Below are positions 5,023 to 30,635 of a DNA stretch of 40,988 nucleotides, one piece after another. The stretch spans positions 1-40,988 of the forward strand of contig NTJQ01000012.1 of NCBI GenBank assembly GCA_002457555.1. Direction: 5' to 3'. The stretch's first letter is position 1. Each line of letters begins with the position of its first letter. The notes under the pieces are model-generated. The model saw nothing but the letters and a program-made list of their open reading frames with translations. It had not been told where the DNA came from and did no database searches. A program made the translations under genes and the position numbers. The DNA is from Marine Group II euryarchaeote MED-G37 (GTDB lineage: Archaea > Thermoplasmatota > Poseidoniia > Poseidoniales > Thalassarchaeaceae).

Positions 5023-5036
5023 ATAGGGTGTGCATT

Positions 5037-8000
5037 ATGTTCGGCTACTCGCGTCAGGATAATCTTGTAATCACTCGTAGAAAGGAGCGTTCAGCTGTTC
5101 TATTCAGCCTCCTTATGTTGCTAACCTCTTACTCTGCAATCGAATTTGCAGCGTGGGAGGCGATGGGTTCAACAGATGCCGATGGAGATGGTCTCCCCTA
5201 TGGTTTGGAATACTACATCAACACCCAACCTCAAGATTGGGATTCTGATGGGGATGGGTTGCCAGACGGCTGGGAATGGCAGTATGGTCTCGACCCTCTT
5301 TCAGCCTCTGGGATTAATGGTTCAACCGGAGATCCTGACGGAGATTCCCTAACAAATCTAAACGAATATCAATATGGAATACCTGCTAATTGGGATTCGG
5401 CAACTACGCCAAATAAGCTCGATAATGGGGTTTGGTGGAATGGTACAGTTCCAGTTAGCAATTGGGACGAAGAGAGTGCTATGCAGTTGATTCAAGGATT
5501 GAATTCAGATGGAGCCGATGAAGACCCTATGGGGAATATTTGCTTCAACACATTTGACGATGACCACGATGGAATGGTTGATAGTTGGGATGGCGACAAT
5601 GACGGTGATGTCGATTGTTCGAGCAATGATGATGATGGTGATAATTTAACCGACGAAGATCCAGATGGTTGGGACACAGATGGAGATGGGATGCCAGATG
5701 GTTGGGAGGTTGCTAACAATCTAGATCCAACTTCAAATTCAGGCGACGACGGTACTGCTGGAGACCCTGATGGTGATGGTCTGATCAATCTCTATGAATA
5801 CGTAAATCCGGCATGGGATACAAGGAATGGTACAACAAACCCACCAACTCAATATTGGAGGCCCGGCCCTGACAATCGAACCAACACTGAATCACCTTGT
5901 AATCCTGTTTTAGCTATCGGACCAGGTTCTCCACCTTGTTCACTATTTACAGCTGAAGTTGATGGAATCACCTATACCGATCCAAATAATAATGACACCG
6001 ATGGAGATGGATTAAATGATTCACACGAGGCATTAGTCCTTCTGACAGACCCTACAGCAGCAGACACTGATGGAGACGGAATCTCAGATGGTGTTGAAGT
6101 AAATGGGTCATATGGAAACCCCCCGCAAGCCTCTGACCCTCGAAATAACAACACGGATGGTGATCAATTCGATGATGGTGAAGAGGATACGAATTTCAAC
6201 GGAGTCGTTGACGCTAACGAAACCGACCCTACTAGGATAGAAGATTCAGGAGATTTTGACGGGGACGGAATTCAAAATTGGGAAGAAAATGCCACTTGTA
6301 CACTATGGGACACCGCAGACACAGATGGTGGAGGTATCGATGATGGCACCGAACTTTCTCCAGCTCATGCCAGCGATCCATGTACATCTACCTACGAATT
6401 ATATCTCGACGTCATCACATGGGTTCCCGTTGACTTTTCTGTAACTTTAAACAATACTAGCAAACTAGACCCCACTCCACTAGACTGGCGCCAAAACGGA
6501 GCTCCAATGGCGTATTTTGAATCTGGCACAGGAAATAGAACTCCCTTCCAATACTCCTCAATCGATGGCAATATATTGCGCTCTGTTTCAATTACTATGC
6601 CTTCCGATTCTATCTATGTAGTTGTTCTAAATGGCTCATGGTGTTGGGATGCTTCACTTGGTTCTGCTAATGAACAGCATTGTGATGATGATTATCGAGA
6701 TACTGATGGTGATGGTCTAGCCGATTGGGAAGAATCGTTGGGGTCTTGGGGCTTTGAATCATTACCCACACTAACCGATTCTGACGGAGATGGAGTAAAC
6801 GACCTAGATGAGGTGATCAATTCGACTGATCCTTTAGAGCCTTGTAGTAATCTAGCAGATTTTGATGGTGACGGTCTGAATAATTATTTCGAAAATACTA
6901 CTGGTTGCCCATTGATTTACGGTATTGAGAATGGAAATATGTCATTAGATAACTACACAACACTGTGGAATAATTCCGATACAGACAATGGCGGCGTAAT
7001 CGATTACCAAGAATATCTCGATGGAACTAATCCGCAAAATAATCCTGATGATGATTTGAACCCGTTAGATACCGATGGTGATGGGATCCCTGATACCATC
7101 GAACAAGAAATAGGCACTGATTGGTTAGATCCAGATACTGATGGTGGAGGTGTTCCGGATGGAGATGAATGCCTGCCTGAGTATTGGGATAATGGTTGTG
7201 TTGATTCGCTGTTCGATCCATGGGACCCGACGGATGACATTTCTACAAACATGCTATATTTCTTTGCCGAGAATACAACCACTGGTATTGATTACAACAT
7301 CACTCATTATTGGCGCTGGCACACATATGACTCCTATACAGGCGCTTCTTGGGGCGTCAATACTAGTTTAGTTGGGTACACGCCAATGTTCCCTACTTGG
7401 TCAACAACTCAAGGTGTTGCACATCCCGACTTTTGGGATAATTCAGCACTACATTCGTGGGAAATTTCATTCAGTAATAACGGAATATTAAGCCCTGGAG
7501 ATGAGTTGATTGCACCATACAATGCGGTCAATTACACCGGTTGGAGTGATGTAGCCGCAGGCTTAAATTTCTCAAATTATACTCGAGATGTTTTGATTGA
7601 TTCTTCTGTTGTCGACCAGTTATACGTCACAACTCCTCAAATTATTTTTACCGATGCTATTCGAGATAATACAACTGCATTCCAAAATAGCACTTATGCT
7701 ACCGATTATAGAGGATTTACCAATGTTACGACAATCACACAGGCTGTGCTGAATGAGAGTGGTTGGACTTCTGCGTGGGATCAGATTGAGGCCATACAAG
7801 AATTCCTAATTAATGGTAACAATAGTACTACATTCCTTAGAAACCACGCTGGTTCAAATGTGAATCGCAGCGACTCAGGCATTGTAACTTCACTAGATGA
7901 CACCTCGGTTTGGATACTTGAAGAAGCTCTTGAAGGTGATTGTGATGAGTTTGCGACAGTTTTCGCTGCGATGTTAAGAAGTATTGGATTACCAACTAGA

Positions 8001-11000
8001 AAGGTTACAGGCTTCTCCGGAGGGACATGGGTCGATAACGGATTCGAGGTATATGGTAATGATTTCACATGGTGGGTGGAAGTCCATCTACAGACAAATG
8101 CCAATCAAGGCGAATTAGACCTTGGTTGGATTCCATTCGAAGCTTGCCCCGACGTTTCAGTTGTCGAGGTAGTGGATGAAATTTGGTCACCAGATTCCTT
8201 GGAAAGGGATTATTCATCAGGTAATATCTCTCTTAATGGCACACTACAGTTTGTCAGTAACTCCTCAAGTATAGAGGGAATTACTCTAGAACTATACCTA
8301 GTACCTGATAATGAGACTGTAAATGTTCCAGGAAGTGCTGCATTGGCAACTAGACTAATAGGTACTACAACTACTGACTCTGAAGGATTCTTTTCATTCA
8401 ATGGCTCACTTTCTGAGATGATTGAGCCTGGTTTTGGTTCTCTAGTGGTATTAACGCAAAAGCAAGGATACGTTGGTGTTCAGGGGGTATCCTTCCCATG
8501 GTCAATTAATATCACAGACGATGTAAATTTGTCAATAAGTAGCCCCGCTCCAGCCGAACAACCTATGTTGGGGGTAGGGGTTAACTCAACGGTAACCGGA
8601 AGCATGACTTGGGCTAACCTTCCACAAACAGATCCGGCCATGCTGGATACTCTACAAGTCCTCCTTAATTACACAACAATTGAGGAGGGTGATGTTAACC
8701 TAATTGCTGATGTTGGTTCGGGTGGATACTTCGAGTTCGGTGTACCGATATCAGAAAATGAACCTCTTGGCCTAATTAATGCTAGTTTAGCATTCCTTGG
8801 TTGGCATCAAATCGATTTGAATAATGCTAGCAATCCAGAATATCATCTAAGGCCCAAAACAATTGATTTTAATTTTAATATAACACCTTCACCAAACCTA
8901 ACAATATCTCTAGAAGGTAGTGACTCAAACAACAGCATTTTGGATATTAATCAATTAGTTTTCATCAATGGTACTGCAGTTAGTAGAGGGCCATCGCCCG
9001 ATCCATTGAATGGCACACTTACTTTCCAGATGCGCAGAGCCGGAACCAATGGCCCCTATACTGATCTCGCTACTTGGGAACTTAATTCTAGTAATTGGAC
9101 AACAAATCCTGGTCAATTTGCTATCGAATGGGACTTCAATGAGTCATCTGTATCTATCCCCGCGGGTCTTGTTGAAGTGAAGTTCATTTATTCTGCAGAT
9201 GAGTTATTCGCTTCCGATGAGGAATCTTTCCAGTCTAGTTTTGGTATCAGATCATATGTGGAATTCTCCTATGTATTAATTGCAACCGAAAGAGGTACAG
9301 AGGCTTCCGTCGCAGTACAATTATCTGATCATACTGGAACATCAGTTGCCGATTTCCCTGGCCTATACAGTGTTGACTTTAATGGCACTGAAGTATTCAA
9401 TATTACCGACCCTGAATCGAGTAGTTTCAACGTAGTATGGGTGCCTAATTTGAATACAATCGCTGGAGATTACTTGTGGCAACTAAATTACACGGGGTCA
9501 ACATGGCTCAGGCCTACTTCTGCACTGGATAGTATTAGGATACAAGGCAGAGCTAACGTAACAGTTACACTGGGTTCCGAATGGACTGAGAGAGGAACCG
9601 TAACTTGGGTTTCAGGGGCGGCTCAGGATATTTTCCATCTTACTCCAATAACAGGAAATAACTCCTCAATTGTAGTCCAACTTGAGATCCCATCGGATTT
9701 ACCTCCAAGCCCTGATGGAAGCCCCGCACCCCCTGTCATCCGCACACTTGTCGGCGGCTGGATTAACGAGACAACAGGTGCGTATAACTACTCATTCACT
9801 ATGCCAACCGATGTTGGTTCAGGTGCCTACTTCTTACGCTTTGTTCTAGATTTTTCAACAAATGCCGAGGTCCTTGGCCCATTCTATACTACTCTTGCAC
9901 AAACAAGAGTTTTGACAGGAATTCAAAGCGAATTTGTAGTTAATGCAGAACCTCAATCAATCATTGTTATTGCCGGCAATACTCTAATTCTAAACGCCAC
10001 AATAACGGACATAGCAGATGATTCCGTGGTGCCAGATACAGATGTCGACTTATACTTCGATTGGGGCGGCCCTAATCAAATAATTATCGATTCAGCGACA
10101 ACAGATGTAGACGGTATTGCAAGGTTCAGTCCTTCTATTCTAGAAGACACCACTCCAGGATTCTATGACCTACGTGTCCAAGCTAATGATGACCTAACAG
10201 ATAATCTAACAGACGTCGATGCAGGGCGTTGGATTGGGAATGATACATTTGCAAATTTAACCGTGCAGGTAGACAGTCAAGTGGAAATTAACTCCATACC
10301 TCAAGAAGTCACTGCGGGGCAGTCATTTACCCTTTCAGGACGGATTTTAGACGGATTCGATAGTAATAGAAGTGTCAGTGGGCCAATGGCGGTCGAGGTA
10401 TTCTTCCTTAACGATTCTAGTGAAAAATTAGTATCCAGTCAAACAACAACAAACAATGGTTCATTCTCAGTATCGGTTCCAACAGACCCATTTGGTGATG
10501 GAGTTTCGAGTGGAACCAAGACAGTAGTCGTGAGCGTAATTGAAGGAAGTTCCCCATTCTATCTTACAGGTACTGGTAATGCATCTATTCTGGTAAGGGG
10601 AGTAACTCGATTTACTGATAGAACTCCTATAATCCAGACAGTTGTTGATCGCGGAACATCAATTACTTTCGGGGCTCGATTAACCGAATTCTCTGATAAT
10701 GACCTTGCTGTTGGAGATATGGAAGTTGGAGCTAAATTCCATGATACATGGTTGAATGGAGGAATAACCAACGGCCAAGGTTTGGTCAATTTCACCTTTG
10801 ATGTCCCACATTCACACCCGCTTGGTCAAATTGGAATCACTCTCTATTTCAATGGCTCTGCAACTCTACATTCAACAACCACTGTATTGAACCAAATTTT
10901 TGTCCGTTCGCCTACTAATCTGACGATCTCACCTGTAACGGAAAATCCAGTTGCTGGCGAATCCTTCAATGTTAGTGGAACTTTACTTTCTAGTAACGGT

Positions 11001-13970
11001 ACAGGAATAATGGATAGAACAGGTGCTGCTTTACCTTCATCCCTTACTTTCTCTATAGACGGCACCGATGCTGGGTTCCAAGCAACGGGAGGTGTTGTGA
11101 ATCCGAATGGCACTTGGAGCGCCGTAATTACGCTCGGGCTATCTTTCCCTAGAGGAACTCATAACATCACCGCGAGTTATACTCCAACTGTAAATTACTA
11201 CGGCTCAAGTAGTGGTACAGGCTCTTTCGATAGTAGGGGGTACTCCCTAATTTCAATATTAGATCCAGCAGACTTAGATCCCGATAGAAGAGTTGTTAGA
11301 GGCGAGGATGTTAGTGTAAATCTCTCAATTATAGATAATGCAGGTCAATTGGTAGAAGATGTCGAAATAGACATTCTAGTTGATGGTTCATTCATTCAAT
11401 CTGTGACCACCGATGCAATAGGAAGAGCAACTTTGGTAATTCCTGTAGATGCACAGAGAACACAAGGTCCAATGCTAATTTCTGCAGAATTCCCGGGAAT
11501 AAATGGTTCTACAGGTTTAATCGGAGATTCCACTTGGTCTAGAGTAATTGTTCTCGCTCCAACAATAATAGAATTCACAGAGCTATCTGGCTCCATGGTT
11601 GCTGGGGAAAACATTACTTTCACTGGCACCCTTCTAGATGAGCACGGCCAATTATTGACTGATAACGGTTTAATTTCTGGAGGCGTAATCCATATTTTGA
11701 TCGATGGAACCGATGTCGGTTCAATCTACACAACAGTTTCGAACGCCTCTACAGGGCAGTGGAGAGTGACCTATGATTTGCCATTAGATATGGATTACGG
11801 AGCTCATACAGTTACTGCTAAATTCCTTGGAGGATTTACTTGGGTAGATCCAATGGGACAAGGAGATTCGTTGAATCCTGAATATTACCTGCCCGCTGCA
11901 AGTACAGTCGAATTCAATGTGACACAAACATCTCAAGTTGTTCTCACAACTCCGCCCGGAGAGGTCGATAGGAACCAGTTACTTCTCATTGAAGGAATGC
12001 TTACGGATGGAGCGGGTCGTACACTTGGAGATAGATATCTAGAAGTCACCATGAATGATCAATTTCTGACCGGACTTCAGGTAGAAGAAAATGGCACATT
12101 CAGCATATATCTTCCAATCCCACCAGATATGCCCTTAGGTCCTAGATTGGTGAAGATTATTTTCCAGGGTGAGGAGTTCATACTCACTTCAAATTCAACC
12201 ACAGTATTCACAGTATACGCCCCTACTATAATTTCAATAGACCCTGTAAGTGCATACGCTGTAGGAGATGAAATGAGGCTTACTGGAACAGTTAGAGATA
12301 ATCTCCCTGATGGCGGGTTGGCTAATCACTCCATTGAAATTTTCATTGATGGCACTCTAGTTGGGATAACCACAAGTCGTGAAAATGGTGACTGGTCATT
12401 CAATTGGGTCATTTCAGACTTCTTGGACATCGGTTTCCATACCATAACTGTAACGGCGCCTGCACAAGGGTATTACAGGCCAGGAAGTGTAGACGCCAAT
12501 CTGACAATTGCTTACCATACTTCGATCAATTTGCAAGTGGATGATGTATCGGTTACTAGAGGCGAAAAATGGAACTTCACAGGTAGACTATTTGACTCAG
12601 ATACAGCAGGAGCGCCAGGTCTTTCCGGACGAGAAATTATAGTCATTCTTGATGGATTAGAAATTAATCGAATAACCACTGGCGAAGATGGTGTTTTCGA
12701 ATTGGAATATTCGATCGGCTACTTGATTGCAAGAGGCGGACACGATATTAGATTCACATTTGAGGGTCAAACATTCTACCTGCCGGTGGAGTATAACATG
12801 ACGGTTTATGCAAAGGCAGATATCCAAATCGAGGTTCTTTGGGAGACGGACTTGATTATTCGTTCAGATGATTCTAAGGAGATTAAATTAGTAGGCAGAA
12901 TAATCGAAGTTGGTGGAGAAAGCAACGTCATTGAAGGTATGGAGGTGGTATTGCTTTGGAATGGTTTAGCAGAACCATCAACCATAGTTTGGGACGAATC
13001 CACAGGTCACTTCGAACTACGTTCTCCTGCCCGCTCGACAATGCCGCCTGGTGAATTATCACTTACAATATCCGCAATTACCGATGCAGACAGATTCCTA
13101 AACGGTTTGGAAATTGAGCATATTGTCAACATCCGCGTTCCGGTGAGTTTTACATTTACCCCAGATAGTCATCATATCAAAGAAAACCAAAGGCGAATAA
13201 ATGGTACAGTGACCGTTACTGCAAACGACACCGGTCTGCCTGTAGAAGGTATTTCCATCGTTGCAAGGCTAGTCAATCAATCGGTGATACATTTCCAAAA
13301 CGTAAAGCTGACAGATTCAAACGGAATAATGGATTATGATTTCACAATTCAAAATCAACCGGCATTTTATGACCAAAATAAATGGGGAGAATTATCTCTT
13401 CTCTTCCAAACAGATTCTCAACTAATCAGTCCAAATGATCGATTGTGGTTAAACAACGATTATTCGGGTATTGAGATGACCTACGAGGACCCCGCTCCTC
13501 TCTTCACATTCTGGCAAATTATTGCTCTTATCGGGATGCTCTTGATTTTGGGGACTCTTATTGGACTTGGTTTATCCCTTAGAAGACGCCGATTAGCGGC
13601 ACTTGATGAGATGGCTGATATTTTCAGTTATACGGCTGAGTTACTAGCTGCTGGAGATGAGATACGAGAGGCTATATTCAATTGTTACGAGAGTCTATGC
13701 AATATATTGATGCGAAATGGATTCCTTCGTCGAGACTTTGAGACTGTTAGAGAATTTGAAATGGCGATAAGAAAGGCCCTACCAATTAGTGAAGAAGCAC
13801 TTGTGGCATTGGACCGAATTTTCGAAGAGGCCAGATATTCATCTCACAAGTTGGGCGATGGCCATAGACAAAATGCTCAACATGCACTTTCGATGGTATT
13901 GCAAGAAATCGATGAACTACAAGATGTCCCAGAGAGGGACTCATTTGATCTCAGTGAGGCAGTTGCTTGA
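5037..13970 (+). CDS. Giant surface protein: TSP3 repeats, transglutaminase-like domain, Ig-like array, TM, DUF4129
   Basis: About 2,977 residues. Order: basic N-terminus with hydrophobic helix (about 22-45); many calcium-binding thrombospondin type 3 motifs of the DxDGDGxxDxxE kind (about 45-725); a YTGASWG segment, then a transglutaminase-like domain around 960-1050 (GDCDEFATVFAAMLRSIGLP, Cys969, then RKVTGFSGG and GWIPFEACP); a long array of roughly 90-100-residue Ig-like repeats (about 1090-2810); a membrane helix (about 2823-2850) followed by RRRR; and a cytoplasmic DUF4129 helical domain. This order matches TgpA-like transglutaminase/DUF4129 proteins, hugely expanded. The catalytic His and Asp of the triad appear replaced (TWWVEV for HAWVEV; FEACP for FDPTP), so enzymatic activity is doubtful. 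An ATG at 5004 is in frame, but the ATG at 5037 has AGGGTG six bases upstream and lies after the hairpin. Likely a calcium-stabilised adhesin or surface scaffold. Confidence 0.85.
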   Translation: MFGYSRQDNLVITRRKERSAVLFSLLMLLTSYSAIEFAAWEAMGSTDADGDGLPYGLEYYINTQPQDWDSDGDGLPDGWEWQYGLDPLSASGINGSTGDPDGDSLTNLNEYQYGIPANWDSATTPNKLDNGVWWNGTVPVSNWDEESAMQLIQGLNSDGADEDPMGNICFNTFDDDHDGMVDSWDGDNDGDVDCSSNDDDGDNLTDEDPDGWDTDGDGMPDGWEVANNLDPTSNSGDDGTAGDPDGDGLINLYEYVNPAWDTRNGTTNPPTQYWRPGPDNRTNTESPCNPVLAIGPGSPPCSLFTAEVDGITYTDPNNNDTDGDGLNDSHEALVLLTDPTAADTDGDGISDGVEVNGSYGNPPQASDPRNNNTDGDQFDDGEEDTNFNGVVDANETDPTRIEDSGDFDGDGIQNWEENATCTLWDTADTDGGGIDDGTELSPAHASDPCTSTYELYLDVITWVPVDFSVTLNNTSKLDPTPLDWRQNGAPMAYFESGTGNRTPFQYSSIDGNILRSVSITMPSDSIYVVVLNGSWCWDASLGSANEQHCDDDYRDTDGDGLADWEESLGSWGFESLPTLTDSDGDGVNDLDEVINSTDPLEPCSNLADFDGDGLNNYFENTTGCPLIYGIENGNMSLDNYTTLWNNSDTDNGGVIDYQEYLDGTNPQNNPDDDLNPLDTDGDGIPDTIEQEIGTDWLDPDTDGGGVPDGDECLPEYWDNGCVDSLFDPWDPTDDISTNMLYFFAENTTTGIDYNITHYWRWHTYDSYTGASWGVNTSLVGYTPMFPTWSTTQGVAHPDFWDNSALHSWEISFSNNGILSPGDELIAPYNAVNYTGWSDVAAGLNFSNYTRDVLIDSSVVDQLYVTTPQIIFTDAIRDNTTAFQNSTYATDYRGFTNVTTITQAVLNESGWTSAWDQIEAIQEFLINGNNSTTFLRNHAGSNVNRSDSGIVTSLDDTSVWILEEALEGDCDEFATVFAAMLRSIGLPTRKVTGFSGGTWVDNGFEVYGNDFTWWVEVHLQTNANQGELDLGWIPFEACPDVSVVEVVDEIWSPDSLERDYSSGNISLNGTLQFVSNSSSIEGITLELYLVPDNETVNVPGSAALATRLIGTTTTDSEGFFSFNGSLSEMIEPGFGSLVVLTQKQGYVGVQGVSFPWSINITDDVNLSISSPAPAEQPMLGVGVNSTVTGSMTWANLPQTDPAMLDTLQVLLNYTTIEEGDVNLIADVGSGGYFEFGVPISENEPLGLINASLAFLGWHQIDLNNASNPEYHLRPKTIDFNFNITPSPNLTISLEGSDSNNSILDINQLVFINGTAVSRGPSPDPLNGTLTFQMRRAGTNGPYTDLATWELNSSNWTTNPGQFAIEWDFNESSVSIPAGLVEVKFIYSADELFASDEESFQSSFGIRSYVEFSYVLIATERGTEASVAVQLSDHTGTSVADFPGLYSVDFNGTEVFNITDPESSSFNVVWVPNLNTIAGDYLWQLNYTGSTWLRPTSALDSIRIQGRANVTVTLGSEWTERGTVTWVSGAAQDIFHLTPITGNNSSIVVQLEIPSDLPPSPDGSPAPPVIRTLVGGWINETTGAYNYSFTMPTDVGSGAYFLRFVLDFSTNAEVLGPFYTTLAQTRVLTGIQSEFVVNAEPQSIIVIAGNTLILNATITDIADDSVVPDTDVDLYFDWGGPNQIIIDSATTDVDGIARFSPSILEDTTPGFYDLRVQANDDLTDNLTDVDAGRWIGNDTFANLTVQVDSQVEINSIPQEVTAGQSFTLSGRILDGFDSNRSVSGPMAVEVFFLNDSSEKLVSSQTTTNNGSFSVSVPTDPFGDGVSSGTKTVVVSVIEGSSPFYLTGTGNASILVRGVTRFTDRTPIIQTVVDRGTSITFGARLTEFSDNDLAVGDMEVGAKFHDTWLNGGITNGQGLVNFTFDVPHSHPLGQIGITLYFNGSATLHSTTTVLNQIFVRSPTNLTISPVTENPVAGESFNVSGTLLSSNGTGIMDRTGAALPSSLTFSIDGTDAGFQATGGVVNPNGTWSAVITLGLSFPRGTHNITASYTPTVNYYGSSSGTGSFDSRGYSLISILDPADLDPDRRVVRGEDVSVNLSIIDNAGQLVEDVEIDILVDGSFIQSVTTDAIGRATLVIPVDAQRTQGPMLISAEFPGINGSTGLIGDSTWSRVIVLAPTIIEFTELSGSMVAGENITFTGTLLDEHGQLLTDNGLISGGVIHILIDGTDVGSIYTTVSNASTGQWRVTYDLPLDMDYGAHTVTAKFLGGFTWVDPMGQGDSLNPEYYLPAASTVEFNVTQTSQVVLTTPPGEVDRNQLLLIEGMLTDGAGRTLGDRYLEVTMNDQFLTGLQVEENGTFSIYLPIPPDMPLGPRLVKIIFQGEEFILTSNSTTVFTVYAPTIISIDPVSAYAVGDEMRLTGTVRDNLPDGGLANHSIEIFIDGTLVGITTSRENGDWSFNWVISDFLDIGFHTITVTAPAQGYYRPGSVDANLTIAYHTSINLQVDDVSVTRGEKWNFTGRLFDSDTAGAPGLSGREIIVILDGLEINRITTGEDGVFELEYSIGYLIARGGHDIRFTFEGQTFYLPVEYNMTVYAKADIQIEVLWETDLIIRSDDSKEIKLVGRIIEVGGESNVIEGMEVVLLWNGLAEPSTIVWDESTGHFELRSPARSTMPPGELSLTISAITDADRFLNGLEIEHIVNIRVPVSFTFTPDSHHIKENQRRINGTVTVTANDTGLPVEGISIVARLVNQSVIHFQNVKLTDSNGIMDYDFTIQNQPAFYDQNKWGELSLLFQTDSQLISPNDRLWLNNDYSGIEMTYEDPAPLFTFWQIIALIGMLLILGTLIGLGLSLRRRRLAALDEMADIFSYTAELLAAGDEIREAIFNCYESLCNILMRNGFLRRDFETVREFEMAIRKALPISEEALVALDRIFEEARYSSHKLGDGHRQNAQHALSMVLQEIDELQDVPERDSFDLSEAVA

Positions 13971-17392: not shown

Positions 17393-20214
<2,822 letters not shown>

Positions 20215-20217
20215 AAA

Positions 20218-20964
20218 TCAGACACTTTCTTCGTTTATCGATGAAAGGAATTTCTGCAATCTTTCAGTCTTTGGCTCGTTGATAATCGAGGAAGGCCCCT
20301 CTTCCGCAACCTTCCCATGATCTAGGTAGACTATTCTGTCTGCCACATCCCTTGCGAAATTGATTTCATGGGTTACAATGACCATTGTCATTCCTTCGTC
20401 TGCCAACCCTCGAATAGTTTTCAGGACTGAACCAATCAATTCTGGGTCTAGTGCACTTGTGGGTTCGTCGAATAGAATAACCTCTGGCTTCATCGCTAGC
20501 GCTCGAGCAATTGCAACTCGTTGCTTTTGTCCGCCTGATAAATTACCAGGATATGCTTCTACCCTCTCTAACATATCGACTCTTTCTAGAACCTCTAATG
20601 CTACCTCTTCGGCCTTCGATTTACTCATTCTACGAACATGACGGAGACCTAGAGTGATATTGTCTAGAACTTTCAAATGAGAAAATAATTCGAATGACTG
20701 GAAAACCATTCCGATTCTGCTTCTAACTTGATTTACATCTGCTACAGGTGTGTTAATCTGTTCTCCTCGTAGTTCTATTACTCCATCTGTCGGCTCAATT
20801 AATCTGTTGATACATCGTAGAACGGTAGATTTTCCAGAGCCCGAAGACCCGATTATCGCTACTGATTCTCCTTCATGGACATCGAAAGTAACTCCTTTTA
20901 CCGCATGAACTCCCCCGGAGTAGATCTTCTGCAAATCACGAATTGAGAGAACTACATCTGCCAT
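20218..20964 (-). CDS. Polar amino-acid ABC transporter ATPase (GlnQ/HisP-like)
   Basis: A 248-residue cytoplasmic ATPase energising uptake of polar amino acids. Walker A is GSSGSGKST (about 39-47), Q-loop MVFQSFELF, signature LSGGQKQRVAIARALA, Walker B VILFDEPTSALDPE, and H-loop VTHEINFA. The THExxFA-type H-loop and NxLxLGxxHV-like segment are typical of the GlnQ group, though the protein may serve any polar amino acid. The ATG directly follows the permease stop with no spacer. GGAGGTG within the permease's last codons is the ribosome-binding site, so the two genes are translationally linked. No substrate-binding protein is encoded beside them. Confidence 0.93.
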   Translation of the reverse strand: MADVVLSIRDLQKIYSGGVHAVKGVTFDVHEGESVAIIGSSGSGKSTVLRCINRLIEPTDGVIELRGEQINTPVADVNQVRSRIGMVFQSFELFSHLKVLDNITLGLRHVRRMSKSKAEEVALEVLERVDMLERVEAYPGNLSGGQKQRVAIARALAMKPEVILFDEPTSALDPELIGSVLKTIRGLADEGMTMVIVTHEINFARDVADRIVYLDHGKVAEEGPSSIINEPKTERLQKFLSSINEESV

Positions 20965-23013
20965 TCATGCACCTCCTGAAATCCCTAATCCTGGAATACG
21001 TGTAGTTTCTTCTAATCTCCTCAGTAGAAGGGCTAGAGTCCAAGTTACTACAAAGTAAGAAATCATCACCAATCCCCATGCGGAGAAAATTTGAAACGTA
21101 GTGGCAATCATTAGTTTTCCTTGTCGTGAAAGTTCGGAATAACCAATTACCATCGCAAGTGAAGAATTCAATACTAAATTTACCATCTCGTTACCAATAG
21201 GTGGGATACAAATTCGGATCGCTTGAGGCATTATCACTAATCTCATTGTTCCCAAATAGGTCAGACCGATGCTTCTACCTGCTTCCATTTGACCCGAAGG
21301 TATGGCCGAAATCGCACCACGTATAGTCTCGCATTGGTACGCTCCTGAATTAAGGCCTAGAGTGAAAATTGCGCTGAGAAAAGTTCTGTCTCCATAAAAG
21401 AAGTAGTCAATTCCATCAATACCGGGGTCGCCAAAAGTTCCTTCCATCAATTGTTGAATTCGCATTCCTAACCTTAGTCCGAAGTGAATGAACATAAATT
21501 GTACAATCAGAGGTGTATTGCGGAAGAAATCAGTATAGACGGTTGCTAATGAGTTCAATGGTCGAACTTTGAAAAGACGCCCGGACAATTTTTTATCGGC
21601 TAGAATGAATTGAATAGAAATTACAACAATAGCTAATCCCAAGACAAACATCGCAAATCCTCGGGGGTCCCCTACAGGAGTGAAAATATACTCCAACCCC
21701 TCCAATTGTAATTTTGGAAATCTAGTGACTCCGGTGTATAATAACCATAATCCGATTATCAAACCGAATGCTCCAAGTCCCCTAATTTGATTTGTAGAAT
21801 ATTTTTCTAGTATGTTCTTGAAAGACGTAGGTGCAGTCTTTAACATCGCCAGGAGAACCCCAATTGTGAATCCTAATAAAATTCCGAATACCACGATTTT
21901 TACTGTTGCAATAAATCCAGATAACAGCATATCATCCGCGTATTCAACAAACTCTCCAAAATTATTGTAATCCGGAATTTGGAATCCAATATCTTCGTTT
22001 TCTCCTGCTCTATCGGTAAACAAGATGACACCTGAATCCCCAACTACAATTCCTGAAACATAGTCAAACATAGCATGATCATTGAACGAAGTATTTACTC
22101 CAGCGGGTAGAATGTTTCTTTCAACATTTAACCCCTGATCAAGACTTAATCCAAGGTATCCGTCTGGTCCAGCAAATAGAATTCTAGAAGATGAGACCAC
22201 ATCGATAGAGGAAAGGGTAGTTGCAAGCGTTGTATTGTACCCTACAGATTCAATCTCCCGGAGTTGCCATTCGAATCCACCAGGAGATGTGGAGTAGAGT
22301 ATTTGCCCAGAATCACTCACAGCAAACATTCGATATGGGTTAAAGTAAGAAATTGAAATAATTGTAGCATCCTCATCTGGAGACTCTCGATAATCCCACG
22401 TAGCACCTCCATTAGCTGTTGCTAGAATAGTCCCAGCATCACCAACAGCTAATCCTTCTTCATCCCCGTTGAAGTCAATATCGTGCAGGTTTTCAGTAAA
22501 ACTCGTTGTTCTATTCCACCAAGTCTCATCAATATACTGCCAAATATTACCTCCGTTTCCTACGATTACGAAGGAATCATCCCCGGTTAAAGCGATGCTA
22601 TTAATTCCTGTTTGGCTTGATTCGATTGTACCCCATTCATCATCTACACCTTCTTTCATGTAGATCACCCCCTCTGAAGAAAGTACAGCAATAGATTCTC
22701 CAAAGGAATCTGCAGAAATTAGATTTGCATCTCCTAAAGAAGTGTGATTTTGCCATGTGGCGCCAGAATCTTGACTAAATCTAACTACCCCAGAATCTCC
22801 GAATACCCAAGCTATTTCTCCTTGAATAACAGCTGAATTTAGATCTTTATCGGTCCAACTTTCAGCCTCGCCCCATCCTGTTATTGTCTCTTGACCACTT
22901 GAGTGCGGAATTGTACAGATTAACAAAGTGCAAACTAGGATAACCACCCTTGATTTTGAGTCAATTGCTGACCAAGAGAAGATTCTCTCGATACCCGGAG
23001 ACGCACTTTTCAC
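20965..23013 (-). CDS. Fusion: extracellular BNR/Asp-box beta-propeller plus amino-acid ABC permease
   Basis: A 682-residue protein joining two modules. After an N-terminal hydrophobic signal or anchor (about 22-40), residues 45-345 carry propeller repeats of the BNR/YCF48 kind, with Asp-box motifs SQDSGATW and TANGGATW and repeated GDxGxI/GxxGxI turns. From about 355 comes a HisM/GlnP-type permease: ATVKIVVFGILLGFTIGVLLAML, an insertion with two extra membrane helices, TDFFRNTPLIVQFMFIHFG, and the cytoplasmic EAA loop EAGRSIGLTYLGTMRLVIMPQA that docks to the ATPase. It starts with GTG at 23013. The propeller would lie outside the membrane at the permease entrance. This fusion is unusual; the propeller may bind substrate, a partner protein or the cell envelope. 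No separate binding protein is adjacent. Confidence 0.88.
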   Translation of the reverse strand: MKSASPGIERIFSWSAIDSKSRVVILVCTLLICTIPHSSGQETITGWGEAESWTDKDLNSAVIQGEIAWVFGDSGVVRFSQDSGATWQNHTSLGDANLISADSFGESIAVLSSEGVIYMKEGVDDEWGTIESSQTGINSIALTGDDSFVIVGNGGNIWQYIDETWWNRTTSFTENLHDIDFNGDEEGLAVGDAGTILATANGGATWDYRESPDEDATIISISYFNPYRMFAVSDSGQILYSTSPGGFEWQLREIESVGYNTTLATTLSSIDVVSSSRILFAGPDGYLGLSLDQGLNVERNILPAGVNTSFNDHAMFDYVSGIVVGDSGVILFTDRAGENEDIGFQIPDYNNFGEFVEYADDMLLSGFIATVKIVVFGILLGFTIGVLLAMLKTAPTSFKNILEKYSTNQIRGLGAFGLIIGLWLLYTGVTRFPKLQLEGLEYIFTPVGDPRGFAMFVLGLAIVVISIQFILADKKLSGRLFKVRPLNSLATVYTDFFRNTPLIVQFMFIHFGLRLGMRIQQLMEGTFGDPGIDGIDYFFYGDRTFLSAIFTLGLNSGAYQCETIRGAISAIPSGQMEAGRSIGLTYLGTMRLVIMPQAIRICIPPIGNEMVNLVLNSSLAMVIGYSELSRQGKLMIATTFQIFSAWGLVMISYFVVTWTLALLLRRLEETTRIPGLGISGGA

Positions 23014-23143
23014 AAGATGGTCACGCAGAAGTTAGGATATAGAATCGACCCGTATCACATTGTGTTATTCATTTAGTATCTTGAATAAATTGGAGTATTT
23101 CTATTCGTAATGTTCATGGTTGTCTTTCAAGGCCCATCTTCAT

Positions 23144-24055
23144 ATGGGCGAGATGATTTACCATGGTAAGGTGAAGCAAGTTTGGAGTACGGACAATCCA
23201 GATATTATTGAATTTAGATATACTGACCAAATTAGTGTCTTTGACCAAATTATTCCCAGCCTTATTCCTAGAAAAGGTGAGTCCCTAAACCGGACATCTT
23301 GCCATTGGTTCAAACTCGTCGAGGAAGCAAAAATTTGCGACACTCATGTAATCGAGATGAATGCACCTGACAGAGTTTTAGCCCGTAGGTTCGATGTAAT
23401 TCGTGAGCCGGGTGCGATTTCAAGGGATCAGGAAAATGTCTTCGTTCCTTTAGAGGTGATTTGTCGTCACTACCTTGCAGGTAGCGGTTGGAGAAGATAT
23501 GCAAGGGGTGACGCTCCAGCCGAAGAGTTTGGCTTTGAACCAGGGACTCAACTACAAGAAGGTGTGAAATTACCAAAACCCTACCTTGAGGTTTCAACTA
23601 AGTTTGAAAAATTCGATAGGTTACTAGATAGAGCGGAAGCCTTGGAGATTTCCAATTTAACCGATGAGGAATTTGACTCGATACTAGACATTGTAATCAA
23701 AGTCGATGAAATAATTGAAATCGAAGCCGCAAAGCGGGGGTTAATCCATGTCGATGGTAAGAAAGAATTCGCCTTAGGAGAAGGTCGAATTCCCGTTTTG
23801 GTAGACTCATTTGGAACCCTAGATGAGGATAGATGGTGGGATGCTGAAGCCTATGAGCTGGGAGAGATAGTACAACTATCGAAAGAATTTGTCAGAGGAC
23901 ATTATCTTGAGACGGGACACCACTCCGAGCTTTATGCGGCTAGAGAGGCCGGAATCGAAGAACCACCAATTCCAGCCTTACCTCAAGACATAATCGACCA
24001 AACATCTATGCTGTATGCTGATATGTACGAGAGATTGACCGGTCAGTCATTCTGA
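23144..24055 (+). CDS. purC: SAICAR synthase (purine biosynthesis)
   Basis: A 303-residue phosphoribosylaminoimidazole-succinocarboxamide synthase, joining CAIR and aspartate with ATP. It shows the family N-terminus MIYHGKVKQVWST, then RYTDQISVFD, IPRKGESLNRTS, VIEMNAPDRVLARRFDVI, VPLEVICRHYLAGS, KLPKPYLEVSTK and FALGEGRIPVLVDSFGTLDEDRWW. The open frame extends to a TTG at 23120, but the ATG at 23144 gives the MGEMIYHGK start seen in relatives. TATA-like GAATAAAT lies about 60 bases upstream. It is divergent from the propeller-permease gene and convergent with the unknown 207-residue protein gene. No other purine gene is in the window. Confidence 0.95.
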   Translation: MGEMIYHGKVKQVWSTDNPDIIEFRYTDQISVFDQIIPSLIPRKGESLNRTSCHWFKLVEEAKICDTHVIEMNAPDRVLARRFDVIREPGAISRDQENVFVPLEVICRHYLAGSGWRRYARGDAPAEEFGFEPGTQLQEGVKLPKPYLEVSTKFEKFDRLLDRAEALEISNLTDEEFDSILDIVIKVDEIIEIEAAKRGLIHVDGKKEFALGEGRIPVLVDSFGTLDEDRWWDAEAYELGEIVQLSKEFVRGHYLETGHHSELYAAREAGIEEPPIPALPQDIIDQTSMLYADMYERLTGQSF

Positions 24056-24706: not shown

Positions 24707-27700
24707 TTAGTCGTCGTAGGTCAAGCGCTTCAACCTGCTCTCGAAGTCGTTCAATTGTTCTTCAATAACTTCAGGAACTTCTTCGACCGATTGGCTTCTT
24801 TCCGATTCAACTTCCTTCATTGATTCCTGGATATTATCTTGAGGTATTTTTTCAGAAGGGGGTGTAGGTTGTGGAAGACTCGATTCTTGTTTTTTCTTGC
24901 TAAGAATTGATTCGGTCATATCTAGCAATTTCTTCCTTTCTCTCTGGTTGTAGAGAATCCATGTCAAGGTGAGGGCTAATGCTATTACAAGAACAGCGGA
25001 ACCTATTGCCGTACCCCATTCAAAGCCTGAATCGTTATTTACCGATCCGCCGGTAAGAATCAATTTTGCTTCATTGTCGCTAGGGTCTGAATCAATATCC
25101 CAAGGGAAGTAGCATTGCACTGTGACAGTAATTTCCGTCCCATCTGGTGCATCATCTAGCGGGGGTCGATCCAACTTTGGTTCAGGTGGATAAGTCTTCG
25201 AGAAATCTATCTCATGGGTTGCAGTATGGCTACCGGCTATTACCAAAATACTACAATCAGCATCGGTTAATAGGTAGTGGTATTCTCTCTTAGTCAATAC
25301 CTTAATTTTCTGTGATTCTCCTTCCCCTTCAAGCTCAAGTCCAACTAAGCCAATGTTCCAATCATTTCTGCGAATTTCAAATGCATTATCATCAGAAGCA
25401 ATCACAATTCCCCTTTCATCTAATAACCGAATAATCAGACTCCGCATTCCAGGTTGAGGGTTCCATGACGTAGCGCTTAGGTTGACTTGACCGGAAGTCA
25501 TGTTTGCCCCCAAATCTCCTTCGAATGAGTCTAACAATTTACCCTGTTCGTCTATTAGAATTACACTGTATCTGAAGGGTTGGGTGCCATTTGCAACGGT
25601 ACATTCTGCACTTACGGAAACTGCAGTCCCGGTTATTGAACAGGTAGCATATCTAAGGGCAGGTTCGATAACATATGCTGTGTATGTTAGAACAGTTTCT
25701 GAATCTACAGTAAGTCCAGTTCCAATAGCTCCTAAATTCGCTTGCCAAATCCAACCTCCTTGCACATCCCAATGCAAACCGGACTGAACATCATCGACAA
25801 CCAAGGAATCAGGTGAAGTCCCGTGTATATCTAACAGGACACTATCTCCTTGAACCGATACAATCACCGGTGACGATGCCCATGAATAATCCTCATACTG
25901 AGTGTCTAAGAGAATGCTGCCTAGATTTCCCGCTTCATCCTCAGCATCTATTCTGATAGTTTTTGTTGAACCATCCCAATCTGAGGATGGGATGACCTCT
26001 AATGGGACTCCAGTAATTTCTCCTACACCAATTACTACTTGGGTAGGTCCTGAAACTTGCCAACCCGGTGGTAGGCTAAGAACATCGAGTGAAATTGTTG
26101 TTGGAGCATTTCCTTGATTATGTAATTCCGCATGAGGGTATCCTCCCTTATCTGAAACGATCCAATTCCCCGTCCCTTGTAGGCTGAATTGATGAATAAT
26201 CGCTACCCTTAGTGGTAGTGTAATCGTAGCCTCGCTACTACCATCTCCTTCCCTTAGTTTAACTAGTAATTCCACAGTTCGTCCATGTCTAGCAGTGGAA
26301 GGAGGTGTGATTTGTAAGTCTAGAGTTGCGGTACCCCCCGGGTCTAGGATTGGTAATTCTTCGGGTGTTTGGACCTCCCATCCATTTTCACCATCTACTT
26401 GGACACTTACGTATGGGCGGGTGGGGGAATTTCCTTCCTGAACAACTGTTAGGGAAACGATAGAACCAGAGGGGTCAATCTCTAACTCTGCATCTGATGC
26501 TATAGCATTCCAACCTGCGACGTGAGATACTTCTATTGTGAATGTAAAGGTGTAAACTTCGACATCAAAGGCAACTATCGAACCACTAACTTGGTAGGTC
26601 GTTCCATCCCAAGCCCCTAACGGAACTTCTACCACCAAATACAGTGTAGTGGAACTGTTAACTGGAATTGCAGAGGCATTATCTCCAAAGATCCCCCAAT
26701 CCGTATTTGAGTCAGCACCTTGATGATTTATTATACCCAGGCCAGAAGCGGAAATATCATCGTCTAGGTTTCCAATATTTGTTGCATTTATTTCTACAAT
26801 GAAGGAGTCACCGGGGTTAATCTCAAATGTACTCTCCTCAACATTCCCCAGCGATGAATGTAGTGAAATATCCCAGCGATGATCTTGTCTAGCTTCGAGG
26901 GTGATGATCACTGAATCCGATATTGTTGAATTGCCTTCAGACGTCATGAAAATTTCGATATTAACAGGGTTTCTTGCAGGCGTTGAATCTGGTAAGATTA
27001 TCTCTACAGGAAGAGTTCTCAAACTTCCGGAACTAAGAGTCACCCTAGAGTTACTAAACGTAACCAAGATGCCAGGGTCTTCTGTTAGATTCTGATCCAA
27101 TATTACCGAGTAGGACATGACGTAGGTATCTTCTCCATTTCCTGGATTATACAATCGAACCGTGGCTGGTATAGATTCCTCTACTTCTACTAAATGTGGG
27201 GACTCAGTAGGCGATACCAAAGTGAGAGAGGACCGGTAAATTTGCAAGACTTCAACAGATAGTCTAAGTGAATAATCTGAGCCTAAGCTACTAGAGTCTA
27301 AGAATGAGTGGAATGCAGGAGTCGCATCCATTGGAAGTTCTACAAATAAAGTCCCACTCACTCTTGAACCCGGAATTCCTTGCATAGTAATATCATCTCC
27401 ACTGATGGATAATGCTCCTGAACCGGACCAAATCCAATCATCTATTGACATTCCAGCGTCACTAACCTTCCAATCTAAAATCCCAGATGAGGCAGGAAAG
27501 TCGGCAATAACATTCCATTGTAATGTATTTTCAGGCATACTCCGTTGGTGGTCAGTTTCGGTTACCACACTTGTAGCGATGAATTGTAATAGAACGGTTT
27601 GACAGGTTTCATCTTCTCCACTTCCAACACACATTGTAAGCGGTGTAGAAACGCTATCTCCGAGGGATGCGTCTGTTGGTACGCTGAGTCTTGCAGAAAT

Positions 27701-30379
27701 GATTTTCTGTTCCCCAGCAGCCAGTGTCAATGCAGGAATTTCATTTCCACTTTCATCGTACAGCTCCAGACTATTTTCAACAGAATCCCAAGATGTACTA
27801 TCCCAGAACATTGAGATTGAATTTTCATCAGCATTCCCAAGGTTTTCTACAATCAACCACGCCTTCGCGGAATCCCCAATTAGGCCATAGCCATTACTTG
27901 CAGTGGTACCTGAAGGCCCTCTTATTGATAGTCCACGAGTGCGGTTTGCCTCTACTGGTAAAATCCCACTAACACTAACATTCTGATCTTCATCAAGTGT
28001 GAGACTAAGTGACAGATACCCTGCATCTGACCCTTCCGCACTTATCGGTGCATGAATTCTTAGTGATGGGGTCCAAGTTCCATCTGCTGCAATCTCTATG
28101 GATGTGATACCTCCGGGGGTATCATCACTCCAAGTCCACCCTTGAGGTAGATTACTTGCATCCACGCTCATGCTCCAAACACCTGCAAGTCGGCCAGTAG
28201 AACGAACAGTCGGCTGACCAATTGTCGATTCTCCAGGATTTGCTCTAACAGGATTCGTGGGCATCTCAAATGTCGCATTATACGGAGGTACAATCGCCAA
28301 GCTGGTGGATTGTGCATCGTTGTCATAACGTGATTGGGTGACGTTTTGGTATGGGTCTAGAACCAATTCAAAGGTATATTCCCCAAGTCCGCCAGACCAT
28401 TCTACAGAGAATGATTCGAACCCCGCAGACCCCGTGGGATCCGTCGGTTCTAGGCTATCTGCACGATGCCGGGCTATTTCGGTACCGTCTGCGTATAGTA
28501 TTGCGTCTACGGCCTCGTCAATTTCGATTGTTCCAGCATTTTCAAAGAAGGCTGTAATCGTAACGTCTTCGTTAGGGTTGGGTGCGCTTGGATTGAATTC
28601 TATTGCACGCCCATCTAGTAATGGCCTAACATCGGCTAGAGCCGTGGAGATTACCGTATCGCCAAGAACTATGTCTAAAGTCGCATCTCCATCGACATCT
28701 GCTAAAGATGGTGAAGACCAGGTTCTGTGCTCAACTTCAATCTCATTATTCCAATTGCTATTGATTGCCGCTTGAGTGCCAGTATCTCCATCCCAAGCCC
28801 AAAGAGTCCTTCCATACGCAACTAGTAATTCAGCAGCGCCGCTACCATCGATGTCCATCCAGACTGGCTGTGCGACGGCAATTTCGTCGTTAGGAGCTCC
28901 GCTGGATTGCTCCAAGTCATTGTACCAGTCAATTTGCGGGTTATTCCCTGAAACATCATGACAGCCTGCATGACCATGCCTAGCAGTAGTCTCCTGATAC
29001 CAGGTTACCCAGCATACCCTGTCGATTACATCATCGTCATCTGTATCTATCGCTAGTGGCGGAGCATCGGCGTATCCATTTACTGCCTCAAAAGACCATA
29101 TCTCCGTTCCATCGTCAATCTCCAATCCTCTAAACTCGGCCCCATCGACACTGCTTGAACCATCCGCGTCTGTTGGTATTGAAATTATCATTTCAGGAGT
29201 AGAGTCCGAATCTAAGTTAGCAATTACCGGACCAGGGAGTCTAATGTGTGGTACATCCGAATCTCCATCTAAATTGGATAAACTTAGTGACCATAATTGG
29301 TCCCCGGATTGAGAATTTAATTTCCAAACCCACATTGCTCCGCTAGAGGCATCAGTTGTAGTAAGCAAGACATAGGCAGTTTGGTCATCAACTTGAGCGA
29401 ATGCTGGGTCAGAGGGGTGGCTTCCGTCTTCGAGAGTCGATTGCCATATTGGCGTAGGCACTCCGTTTGCACCAAGAGGTAGGGCTACGACTACTGGTTT
29501 TTCGTTATCGTCGATTGCTGCGAGAACTAATTCAGCATCTCCGTCTAAGTCAAGATCGGCGAGCAAAGGTTGAGTTGTAGGTCTGTGCCCTCCCAACCAA
29601 GAAGAGGTGTAGGGGCCATTTGTACTTCCAATCTGTAAGGTATCGTCACTGTAGCTCCACAGCAACTCTCCACTTTTTGACCCTCCAGGTGACCAACCGG
29701 TTACTGAACAATGAAGTCTTGGTGAGTAAGCATCAACGTGTAGAGCGCTACCAGCGTCGTAAACAATGATGACTTCTTGCATTCCATCGTCATCTAGGTC
29801 AACAATTACTGGTGAAGCCTTGATAATCTCCGTGGCTCCTAGATCTACTTCCCAAGCCAAATCAGCGTCCTCACCCTCGATAATTTTCACGACACTGTGA
29901 TCGTTACCACCAACTACCTCGGTTTGGATTAGTACAATGAACAGAGAGTCGCCTCCACATCTTTCCATAGCTGCCTCATCGGTTACAATTTGTTGGCTGA
30001 AATCTGCAACTGGGGTGCCCAGTGCATCTGTGCCTATCGAATAGGTCCCATATTCCCAATTGATTACGGGGTTGACAACAGAGGATAATTCGGTTGCATT
30101 AGTTGGTATTTCCGTCCCAGCGCCGCCATCTGGGGAATGGGAAGGCCCTTCGGAGGTCCTTTGAGCTATTCTTCCTGGTTGAGGCCAAGGCTGTCCTCCA
30201 TCTACCCAAGGTTCTACAGTTCCGGTGAATGCTGTATCTTCCTGTAAATTGTCCAACTTTCTAACAAAATCCGAATCAATCACAATCAGGGGGGATAGTG
30301 AAAGAAGTAACAAACAGAATACTGCCAGCACCGCATTCTGCTGCCTAGTAGATCGCAAATTCGAACTCGGCATACTCAT
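24707..30379 (-). CDS. Giant surface protein with FG-GAP repeats, CARDB and Ig-like domains
   Basis: About 1,890 residues. The hydrophobic N-terminal segment (about 16-37) is a signal peptide or anchor. The first 550 residues hold six FG-GAP/VCBS-type calcium-binding blades, recognisable as VDLDDDGMQEV, ADLDLDGDAELV, ANLDSDSTPEMI, IDTDDDDVIDRV, MDIDGSGAAELL and ADVDGDATLDIV, a likely beta-propeller. A CARDB domain follows (NPSAPNPNEDVTITAFFENAG), then many NEW3/Ig-like repeats with NxS/T sequons. A membrane helix (about 1788-1812) precedes RERKKLL and a charged, coiled-coil-prone tail of about 80 residues. The ORF extends to a TTG at 30403, but the ATG at 30379 is the more likely start; an ATG at 30373 is also possible. 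Likely adhesion or ligand binding at the cell surface. Confidence 0.87.
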   Translation of the reverse strand: MSMPSSNLRSTRQQNAVLAVFCLLLLSLSPLIVIDSDFVRKLDNLQEDTAFTGTVEPWVDGGQPWPQPGRIAQRTSEGPSHSPDGGAGTEIPTNATELSSVVNPVINWEYGTYSIGTDALGTPVADFSQQIVTDEAAMERCGGDSLFIVLIQTEVVGGNDHSVVKIIEGEDADLAWEVDLGATEIIKASPVIVDLDDDGMQEVIIVYDAGSALHVDAYSPRLHCSVTGWSPGGSKSGELLWSYSDDTLQIGSTNGPYTSSWLGGHRPTTQPLLADLDLDGDAELVLAAIDDNEKPVVVALPLGANGVPTPIWQSTLEDGSHPSDPAFAQVDDQTAYVLLTTTDASSGAMWVWKLNSQSGDQLWSLSLSNLDGDSDVPHIRLPGPVIANLDSDSTPEMIISIPTDADGSSSVDGAEFRGLEIDDGTEIWSFEAVNGYADAPPLAIDTDDDDVIDRVCWVTWYQETTARHGHAGCHDVSGNNPQIDWYNDLEQSSGAPNDEIAVAQPVWMDIDGSGAAELLVAYGRTLWAWDGDTGTQAAINSNWNNEIEVEHRTWSSPSLADVDGDATLDIVLGDTVISTALADVRPLLDGRAIEFNPSAPNPNEDVTITAFFENAGTIEIDEAVDAILYADGTEIARHRADSLEPTDPTGSAGFESFSVEWSGGLGEYTFELVLDPYQNVTQSRYDNDAQSTSLAIVPPYNATFEMPTNPVRANPGESTIGQPTVRSTGRLAGVWSMSVDASNLPQGWTWSDDTPGGITSIEIAADGTWTPSLRIHAPISAEGSDAGYLSLSLTLDEDQNVSVSGILPVEANRTRGLSIRGPSGTTASNGYGLIGDSAKAWLIVENLGNADENSISMFWDSTSWDSVENSLELYDESGNEIPALTLAAGEQKIISARLSVPTDASLGDSVSTPLTMCVGSGEDETCQTVLLQFIATSVVTETDHQRSMPENTLQWNVIADFPASSGILDWKVSDAGMSIDDWIWSGSGALSISGDDITMQGIPGSRVSGTLFVELPMDATPAFHSFLDSSSLGSDYSLRLSVEVLQIYRSSLTLVSPTESPHLVEVEESIPATVRLYNPGNGEDTYVMSYSVILDQNLTEDPGILVTFSNSRVTLSSGSLRTLPVEIILPDSTPARNPVNIEIFMTSEGNSTISDSVIITLEARQDHRWDISLHSSLGNVEESTFEINPGDSFIVEINATNIGNLDDDISASGLGIINHQGADSNTDWGIFGDNASAIPVNSSTTLYLVVEVPLGAWDGTTYQVSGSIVAFDVEVYTFTFTIEVSHVAGWNAIASDAELEIDPSGSIVSLTVVQEGNSPTRPYVSVQVDGENGWEVQTPEELPILDPGGTATLDLQITPPSTARHGRTVELLVKLREGDGSSEATITLPLRVAIIHQFSLQGTGNWIVSDKGGYPHAELHNQGNAPTTISLDVLSLPPGWQVSGPTQVVIGVGEITGVPLEVIPSSDWDGSTKTIRIDAEDEAGNLGSILLDTQYEDYSWASSPVIVSVQGDSVLLDIHGTSPDSLVVDDVQSGLHWDVQGGWIWQANLGAIGTGLTVDSETVLTYTAYVIEPALRYATCSITGTAVSVSAECTVANGTQPFRYSVILIDEQGKLLDSFEGDLGANMTSGQVNLSATSWNPQPGMRSLIIRLLDERGIVIASDDNAFEIRRNDWNIGLVGLELEGEGESQKIKVLTKREYHYLLTDADCSILVIAGSHTATHEIDFSKTYPPEPKLDRPPLDDAPDGTEITVTVQCYFPWDIDSDPSDNEAKLILTGGSVNNDSGFEWGTAIGSAVLVIALALTLTWILYNQRERKKLLDMTESILSKKKQESSLPQPTPPSEKIPQDNIQESMKEVESERSQSVEEVPEVIEEQLNDFESRLKRLTYDD

Positions 30380-30635
30380 CAGAATCCAACTTCCGCTTTC
30401 CAAGCCACTTGAAGGTTAGGGGTATACTCTCATTCAGACCTACGGTCTGAGGGACTTTACACTTCGCGGAGAGTAATTCTATTGCAGAATCTCTTCCGTT
30501 GCGCTTATAGCGGGGTCTTTTGTCGGCGAACCGCACGGACCTCTCCTCTGGAGGCACAGCCGATGAGGGACGGGAGGGTTGACCTGCCTTTCCTCCGACT
30601 GAACTCGGAGCGGTCCGGCGATTGGAGGAAACCGA
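30380..30635. other. Divergent promoter/leader region between giant surface protein and rpo7
   Basis: No gene is supported; minus-strand frames of 70-79 codons here have no recognisable character. The region contains a palindrome at 30434-30450, a CTCCGA/TCGGAG stem at 30593-30610 (loop CTGAAC) and a GC-rich stretch from about 30520 on, which reads as a possibly structured leader of the rpo7 operon. GGAGG at 30624-30628 is the rpo7 ribosome-binding site, seven bases before the ATG. Confidence 0.5.
30434..30450. repeat. Palindrome with CTACG core (copy 3)
   Basis: CAGACC TAC GGTCTG (30435-30449) is a perfect 6-bp inverted repeat, extended to seven pairs by flanking T and A. It lies 55 bases upstream of the giant FG-GAP surface protein start and about 190 bases before rpo7. 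It is of the same type as those at 5008, 18718 and 39522. Confidence 0.55.

Follow-up and report, generated by a model that had tools for sequence, protein, structure and literature searches.

The fusion gene and its neighbours

The window, by which we mean the whole stretch of 40,988 nucleotides analysed here, comes from a marine Thermoplasmatota archaeon of the Thalassarchaeaceae (MGIIb). It includes a gene with a GTG start codon and zero internal stops in the window's list of open reading frames (ORFs). Two Pfam domains score above their curated cut-offs within this one frame, PSII_BNR/YCF48 (PF14870, E=6.5e-13) and BPD_transp_1 (PF00528, E=2.9e-15), and the encoded parts follow each other in the order membrane helix, Ycf48-type propeller and GlnP/HisM-type permease. 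The features of the locus are as follows.

20965..23013, reverse strand: propeller-permease fusion gene, 682 aa (single open frame with PSII_BNR and BPD_transp_1; one frame in relatives too)
22909..22959, reverse strand: N-terminal signal/TM helix, residues 19-35 (hydropathy; AF2 helix 19-33)
21988..22890, reverse strand: predicted extracellular Ycf48-type seven-bladed beta-propeller, residues 42-342 (Pfam, phmmer, AF2, Foldseek, dN/dS)
21835..21918, reverse strand: permease TM1 and adjacent residues, residues 366-393 (alignment with 4yms; hydropathy)
21574..21834, reverse strand: insert with two extra predicted TM helices, residues 394-480 (hydropathy of window and MGIII proteins; alignment)
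20968..21573, reverse strand: core GlnP/HisM-type permease, residues 481-682 (Pfam, NCBIfam, PDB phmmer, alignment, dN/dS)
about 21214-21285, reverse strand: EAA loop, residues 577-600 (alignment)
20218..20964, reverse strand: GlnQ-type ATPase, 248 aa (ORF list, Pfam, NCBIfam)
23014..23119, no strand: intergenic gap between the fusion and purC, the site of a divergent permuted SBP_bac_3 gene in 16 retrieved MGIIb loci of other genera
23120..24055, forward strand: purC (SAICAR synthetase), a divergent neighbour that is not a transporter part (named by sequence and conserved synteny)
18784..20214, forward strand: glutamate dehydrogenase (GDH), a convergent neighbour conserved in several genera

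There is no gene for a substrate-binding protein (SBP) among the ORFs neighbouring the fusion, where purC lies upstream and GDH downstream. Two giant surface-type proteins are encoded elsewhere in the window, one of 2988 aa at 5004-13970 (transglutaminase core, Ig-like, TSP3) and one of 1898 aa at 24707-30403 (FG-GAP, CARDB), and relatives of the second are conserved near the fusion.

The permease part is matched by NCBIfam models of the GlnP/TcyL/HisM type, with HEQRo_perm_3TM over its cut-off, and a phmmer search of PDB sequences pairs it with the permease 4yms_D (2.1e-27). The EAA loop is intact (E577-A-G-R-S-I-G583...P596) and its motif is conserved in the alignment. The TGA stop codon of the permease is directly followed by the ATG of the ATPase, which matches the GlnQ model with E=2e-84 but remains under the equivalog cut-off. 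Judged from their sequences, the permease and the ATPase are parts of a PAAT-type (polar amino-acid) importer, and import of amino acids is predicted. Thus, a sequence-only reading of this DNA correctly described an uninterrupted frame in which a signal-like helix and a propeller run into a HisM/GlnP-type permease, with an intact EAA loop and an ATPase at zero spacing.

Hydropathy and alignment indicate that TM1 and the permease core are separated by two extra TM helices in the MGIIb fusions. The MGIII fusion lacks these helices, and therefore the fusion to a propeller is not tied to that insertion.

Distribution and authenticity of the fusion

The same one-frame fusion is found in the window's genus, in most MGIIb genera and in four MGIII loci (L142, L191-L193), single-cell genomes included, and it is accompanied by the ATPase. 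One genome of each species was scanned with short conserved patterns, which diverged analogues would escape and from which absence from all bacteria is not claimed, and 117 relatives were returned. There are 80 of these 117 that were kept, and all are titled as marine archaea (Euryarchaeota, Marine Group II, Poseidoniales, Thalassarchaeaceae, one Thermoplasmatota and one Poseidoniia MGIII). In other sampled Thermoplasmatota the homologous permease is mostly a standalone protein of about 220-275 aa, with a few in longer frames. Homologues of PAAT permeases in family f17 (e.g. G303, G289, G409 and G309) lie in open frames of 515-1285 aa and are possibly other permease fusions. No relative was found among viral contigs, no plasmid record covered 80% of the query (bacterial PAAT permeases give the best matches), and a PHROGs comparison added nothing.

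No relatives were found in which the propeller and the permease are separate complete genes. Among the apparent split cases, some are cut off at contig ends, G041 and G051 are listed as two matches owing to the insert although one frame is open, and in G177 the end of the permease falls into two frames. An in-frame TGA suspected in the fusions of genus g5 was rejected: full-length g5 loci have one intact ORF of 786-820 aa, and by its coordinates the TGA seems to be the ordinary stop codon, overrun by the match. In genus g14, GDH borders directly on purC without the fusion, which marks an empty site.

Within the window's genus, the propeller has a dN/dS of 0.09-0.12 and the core permease one of 0.01-0.03. 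Both values are well below 1, and therefore both halves are under purifying selection, although the propeller evolves faster. Every full-length fusion recovered keeps its propeller. Most genomes are metagenome bins, but the notion that an assembly or frame artefact joined two genes has practically no probability left and is refuted by uninterrupted frames in many independent assemblies from MGIIb and MGIII (roughly 40-90% identity), by single-cell carriers (e.g. AG-457-A01 and AG-422-I18) and by the dN/dS of both halves. The fusion is real, and homologues with the two parts always in separate genes, which the sequence-only reading had named as the sign of an artefact, are not what the relatives show.

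A Ycf48-type propeller

The repeats of the extracellular part had been described as BNR/Asp-box repeats. They are indeed propeller repeats, but there are only two strict Asp-box motifs (at 80 and 199) and most of the blades are of a degenerate Ycf48 type. The match to PF14870 reaches 49 bits against a cut-off of 27, and the phmmer match among PDB sequences is Ycf48 (2xbg, 1.8e-7). An AlphaFold model of the window's fusion protein, built with 42 relatives, gives residues 42-342 a pLDDT of mostly 84-94 and forms seven four-strand blades, as counted from its strand list. When this propeller model is compared with the PDB by Foldseek, the twelve best matches are all Ycf48 (TMt 0.69-0.77), including Ycf48 within a photosystem II assembly complex and Ycf48 bound to a D1 peptide. 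A photosystem is not expected in these archaea, and a role in photosystem II assembly is not read from the fold.

Unfortunately, the model of the permease core is poor (pLDDT <50) and the placement of the propeller relative to the pore is without confidence. Because the core is unreliable, no docking geometry is argued from this model.

A circularly permuted binding protein beside the fusion in relatives

The sequence-only reading noted that no binding protein is encoded nearby. This is true of the window's locus and of its genus (g1), where the gene is absent and purC abuts the fusion, but it does not extend to the relatives. A divergent SBP_bac_3 gene adjoins the fusion in 17 retrieved species loci (16 MGIIb and one MGIII) and in three further MGIII loci, and in MGIIb it sits exactly between purC and the fusion. 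Thus, a design free of an SBP is not supported for the family.

The locus SBPs are 319-331 aa long. Pfam order and PDB alignments reveal that both halves of the family are present in swapped order, both in these proteins and in an SBP_bac_3 domain encoded elsewhere that is described below. When the MGIII protein is aligned with the ancestral binding protein 4zv1, its residues 175-287 pair with positions 9-115 of 4zv1 and its residues 29-141 with positions 116-232. The locus SBP is therefore circularly permuted. By hydropathy, the N-terminus resembles a signal sequence, and the C-terminus has a hydrophobic helix, predicted to be a membrane anchor, with basic residues after it. The MGIII proteins retain the YPPF, SxMTxTxxR and lobe-2 GD motifs, whereas the pocket motifs (YPPF, TxxR, lobe-2 Asp) are lost in the MGIIb proteins. 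BLAST detected no homology between the MGIII SBP and the Aap receptor. At one MGIII locus (L142 4571-7180), the transporter genes are followed by a gene for an 870-aa secreted or membrane protein whose C-terminal region resembles a winged-helix regulator.

A permuted domain grafted onto a Liv-operon lipoprotein

The only SBP_bac_3 domain found in the window's genome lies outside the window (L051 6854-9934, G000:C1) and is part of a 1027-aa lipoprotein-like protein with three heads, namely a permuted SBP_bac_3 domain and two Peripla_BP_6/ANF domains. Its gene is located upstream of genes for a LivH-LivM fusion, LivG and LivF. LivH and LivM apparently form one 1249-aa protein with two permease domains there (L051 10024-13773).

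In the grafted domain, profile positions 39-131 come first and positions 1-37 follow, a permutation point that differs from that of the locus SBPs. The different points suggest permutation by tandem duplication and trimming. The grafted domain is 47% identical to the MGIII SBP, with the alignment running through the permutation junction, and its pocket motifs, common to the MGIII SBP and lost from the MGIIb locus SBPs, are conserved in 17/17 aligned sequences. A low-confidence model of this domain matches amino-acid-binding proteins. A profile of the locus SBPs matches only the grafted domain in g1 genomes. In six genomes of the genus (G000, G007, G009, G010, G012 and G016, with the window's own included), which are 57-92% complete, no PAAT-type permease other than the fusion and no SBP_bac_3 other than the grafted domain was found. 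Genus g15 has the locus SBP and the grafted domain together.

Another amino-acid importer, of an Aap-like type, is encoded at L053 3894-10143 (G008:C1). It has an SBP of its own and unusually long permeases (809 and 591 aa), and in the window's genus several genomes showed no sign of it. An 892-aa protein at L153 3-2678 (G060:C19) combines an SBP_bac_3 domain of canonical order with four LDL-receptor class A repeats.

Co-distribution of the fusion and the grafted domain

Tables for the fusion, SBP_bac_3 and Peripla_BP_6 were combined by hand across 194 genomes of the order, wherein strong matches were counted as the fusion, Aap permeases were left out, and SBP_bac_3 was counted by its permuted pattern. 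There are 90 genomes with a Liv-type SBP, and the grafted domain occurs in 49/49 of those with the fusion and in 3/41 of those without it (Fisher p about 3e-22, uncorrected for relatedness, so that this value overstates the evidence). The association rests on few independent evolutionary events, and all genomes are drafts.

The Liv SBPs of fusion-free genomes lack SBP_bac_3 and measure about 395 aa in g14 and mostly 750-1110 aa in family f2 and g3. Neither the fusion nor the grafted domain is present in G147, a genome of genus g6; its flanking genes are conserved, another ORF occupies the fusion site in the purC region, and its Liv SBP of 800 aa has no SBP_bac_3 part. The fusion-free carriers of the grafted domain are G004 (73% complete), G075 and G184, the last on an 8.5-kb contig. 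This contig is 82% identical to DNA of genus g16, and the counter-example is possibly due to contamination.

Two further observations concern these genomes. A Liv lipoprotein at L154 3855-7709 (G075:C38) has an N-terminal zinc ribbon. A protein of 584-586 aa, 81% identical between G075 and G147, is encoded next to the chimera in G075, and in G147 it occupies the empty site of the fusion (L171 8185-9942).

A candidate mechanism and its alternatives

We consider it somewhat more probable than all else that the locus encodes an SBP-dependent PAAT importer that has an N-terminal propeller outside the cell and receives its substrate in trans from a permuted SBP_bac_3 module; the propeller would probably act as a docking platform. 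As the unit has one permease gene and one ATPase gene, the simplest assembly would be a homodimer of the fusion joined by two ATPases, and two propellers would then stand around the mouth of the pore. Permeases of the PAAT family have their N-terminus outside the cell, and therefore a propeller at this end would be extracellular.

Ancestrally, the substrate may have been delivered by a separate, C-terminally anchored SBP that is divergently encoded, as in MGIII and some MGIIb genera. For the window's genus, the most likely feeding module would be the SBP_bac_3 domain that the Liv-operon lipoprotein carries in permuted form. On the most economical reading, the propeller would position a membrane-tethered SBP module, initially the anchored protein of the locus and later the grafted domain. 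We infer the pairing of the grafted domain with the fusion, the inward direction of transport and this order of events. A point against this model is that genera with the locus SBP also carry the grafted domain, and therefore the change was not a simple replacement. Perhaps, though this is tentative, one three-headed lipoprotein feeds both the Liv importer and the propeller-permease importer, wherein the propeller would be the dock for a shared receptor.

An unlikely but credible alternative is that the propeller serves assembly, stability or surface tethering as Ycf48 does, with no role in delivery, while the SBP docks on the permease as usual. The nearest solved folds, including Ycf48 with its D1 peptide, agree with this proposal, as does a propeller that evolves faster than the core yet is kept in every full-length fusion. 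However, a photosynthesis-related partner is not expected here, and covalent fusion to the pore of one importer would be an odd arrangement for general assembly help.

The position of the grafted domain in a Liv operon counts against our preferred model, as the domain could serve Liv only, and so do the three fusion-free carriers of the domain. It is doubtful that the domain feeds Liv alone and that the fusion uses another, undetected binding protein. This proposal is in keeping with the place of the domain in that operon and with the coexistence of both SBP forms in g15, but Liv permeases normally take their ligand from Peripla_BP_6 proteins, and the lipoprotein already has two such domains. 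In addition, the Liv SBPs of fusion-free relatives have no SBP_bac_3 domain, and in g1 genomes it is the grafted domain alone that the locus-SBP profile finds.

More improbable still is that the propeller itself captures the substrate in the window's genus, the locus SBP having degenerated and been lost as needless. The MGIIb locus SBPs without pocket motifs and the absence of the gene in g1 would fit such a course. However, MGIII has a propeller and an SBP with an intact pocket side by side, which indicates that the propeller is not inherently a substitute for an SBP. The presence of the grafted domain in every fusion genome with a Liv SBP, with pocket residues conserved in the aligned sequences, also speaks against capture, and we know of no propeller that replaces an SBP in the PAAT family.

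The docking platform, for a tethered binding module or its lipoprotein, is thus the most likely role of the propeller. The sequence-only reading had offered ligand binding, recruitment of a binding protein or a peptidase, and tethering to the cell surface as functions; recruitment of a binding protein fits best, and ligand capture is disfavoured. The same reading proposed a new transport system. The SBP_bac_3 gene beside the fusion in relatives and the permuted domain that tracks the fusion point instead to a variant of the PAAT importers.

Comparison with known systems

The uncultured Marine Group II ranks with the commonest archaea in sunlit ocean waters. Genes for amino-acid receptors belong to those that these archaea transcribe most strongly, and in Ca. 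Thalassarchaeaceae aapJ and livK are highly transcribed (PMC9723583). The main text of that paper has no mention of a propeller. In fusion-bearing genera, the livK-type gene is probably that of the chimeric three-headed lipoprotein. A literature search, with subscription papers and preprints outside its scope, returned nothing relevant on Ycf48- or propeller-permease fusions or on naturally permuted SBPs. Thus, as far as searched, the fusion is undescribed, and no published importer of this design, of which the sequence-only reading knew none, came to light.

The docking of a receptor on its importer appears to have been re-engineered here through domain fusion and circular permutation of the receptor, and MGIII, g15 and g1 offer natural variants at different stages. 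This makes it testable how far the binding protein of a type I importer can be permuted, re-anchored and shared, and what an extracellular propeller adds.

In zinc import by AztD/AztC, the extracytoplasmic AztD, a propeller-fold protein by the wording of the source, passes its ligand on to the binding protein that serves an ABC importer (PMC6689063), which resembles the arrangement proposed here. However, AztD is a separate protein with a metal ligand, and we claim no homology between it and the propeller of the fusion.

Ycf48/HCF136 is both the nearest solved fold and the sequence family of the propeller, but it is a free or lipid-anchored photosystem II assembly factor with no fusion to a transporter. 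The PAAT importers (HisQMP-J, Art(QN)2, GlnHPQ; TC 3.A.1.3) share the permease family with its EAA loop, the GlnQ-type ATPase and, in relatives, SBP_bac_3. They differ in that the permease described here has an N-terminal extracellular propeller, to which the MGIIb versions add two TM helices, and in that the SBP is circularly permuted and, at the locus, either C-terminally anchored or absent. In GlnPQ of Lactococcus lactis, two canonical substrate-binding domains are reportedly fused to the N-terminus of the permease. The extracellular domain is thus attached to the same end of a PAAT permease in both systems, but in the archaeal protein it is a beta-propeller, and the SBP would act in trans.
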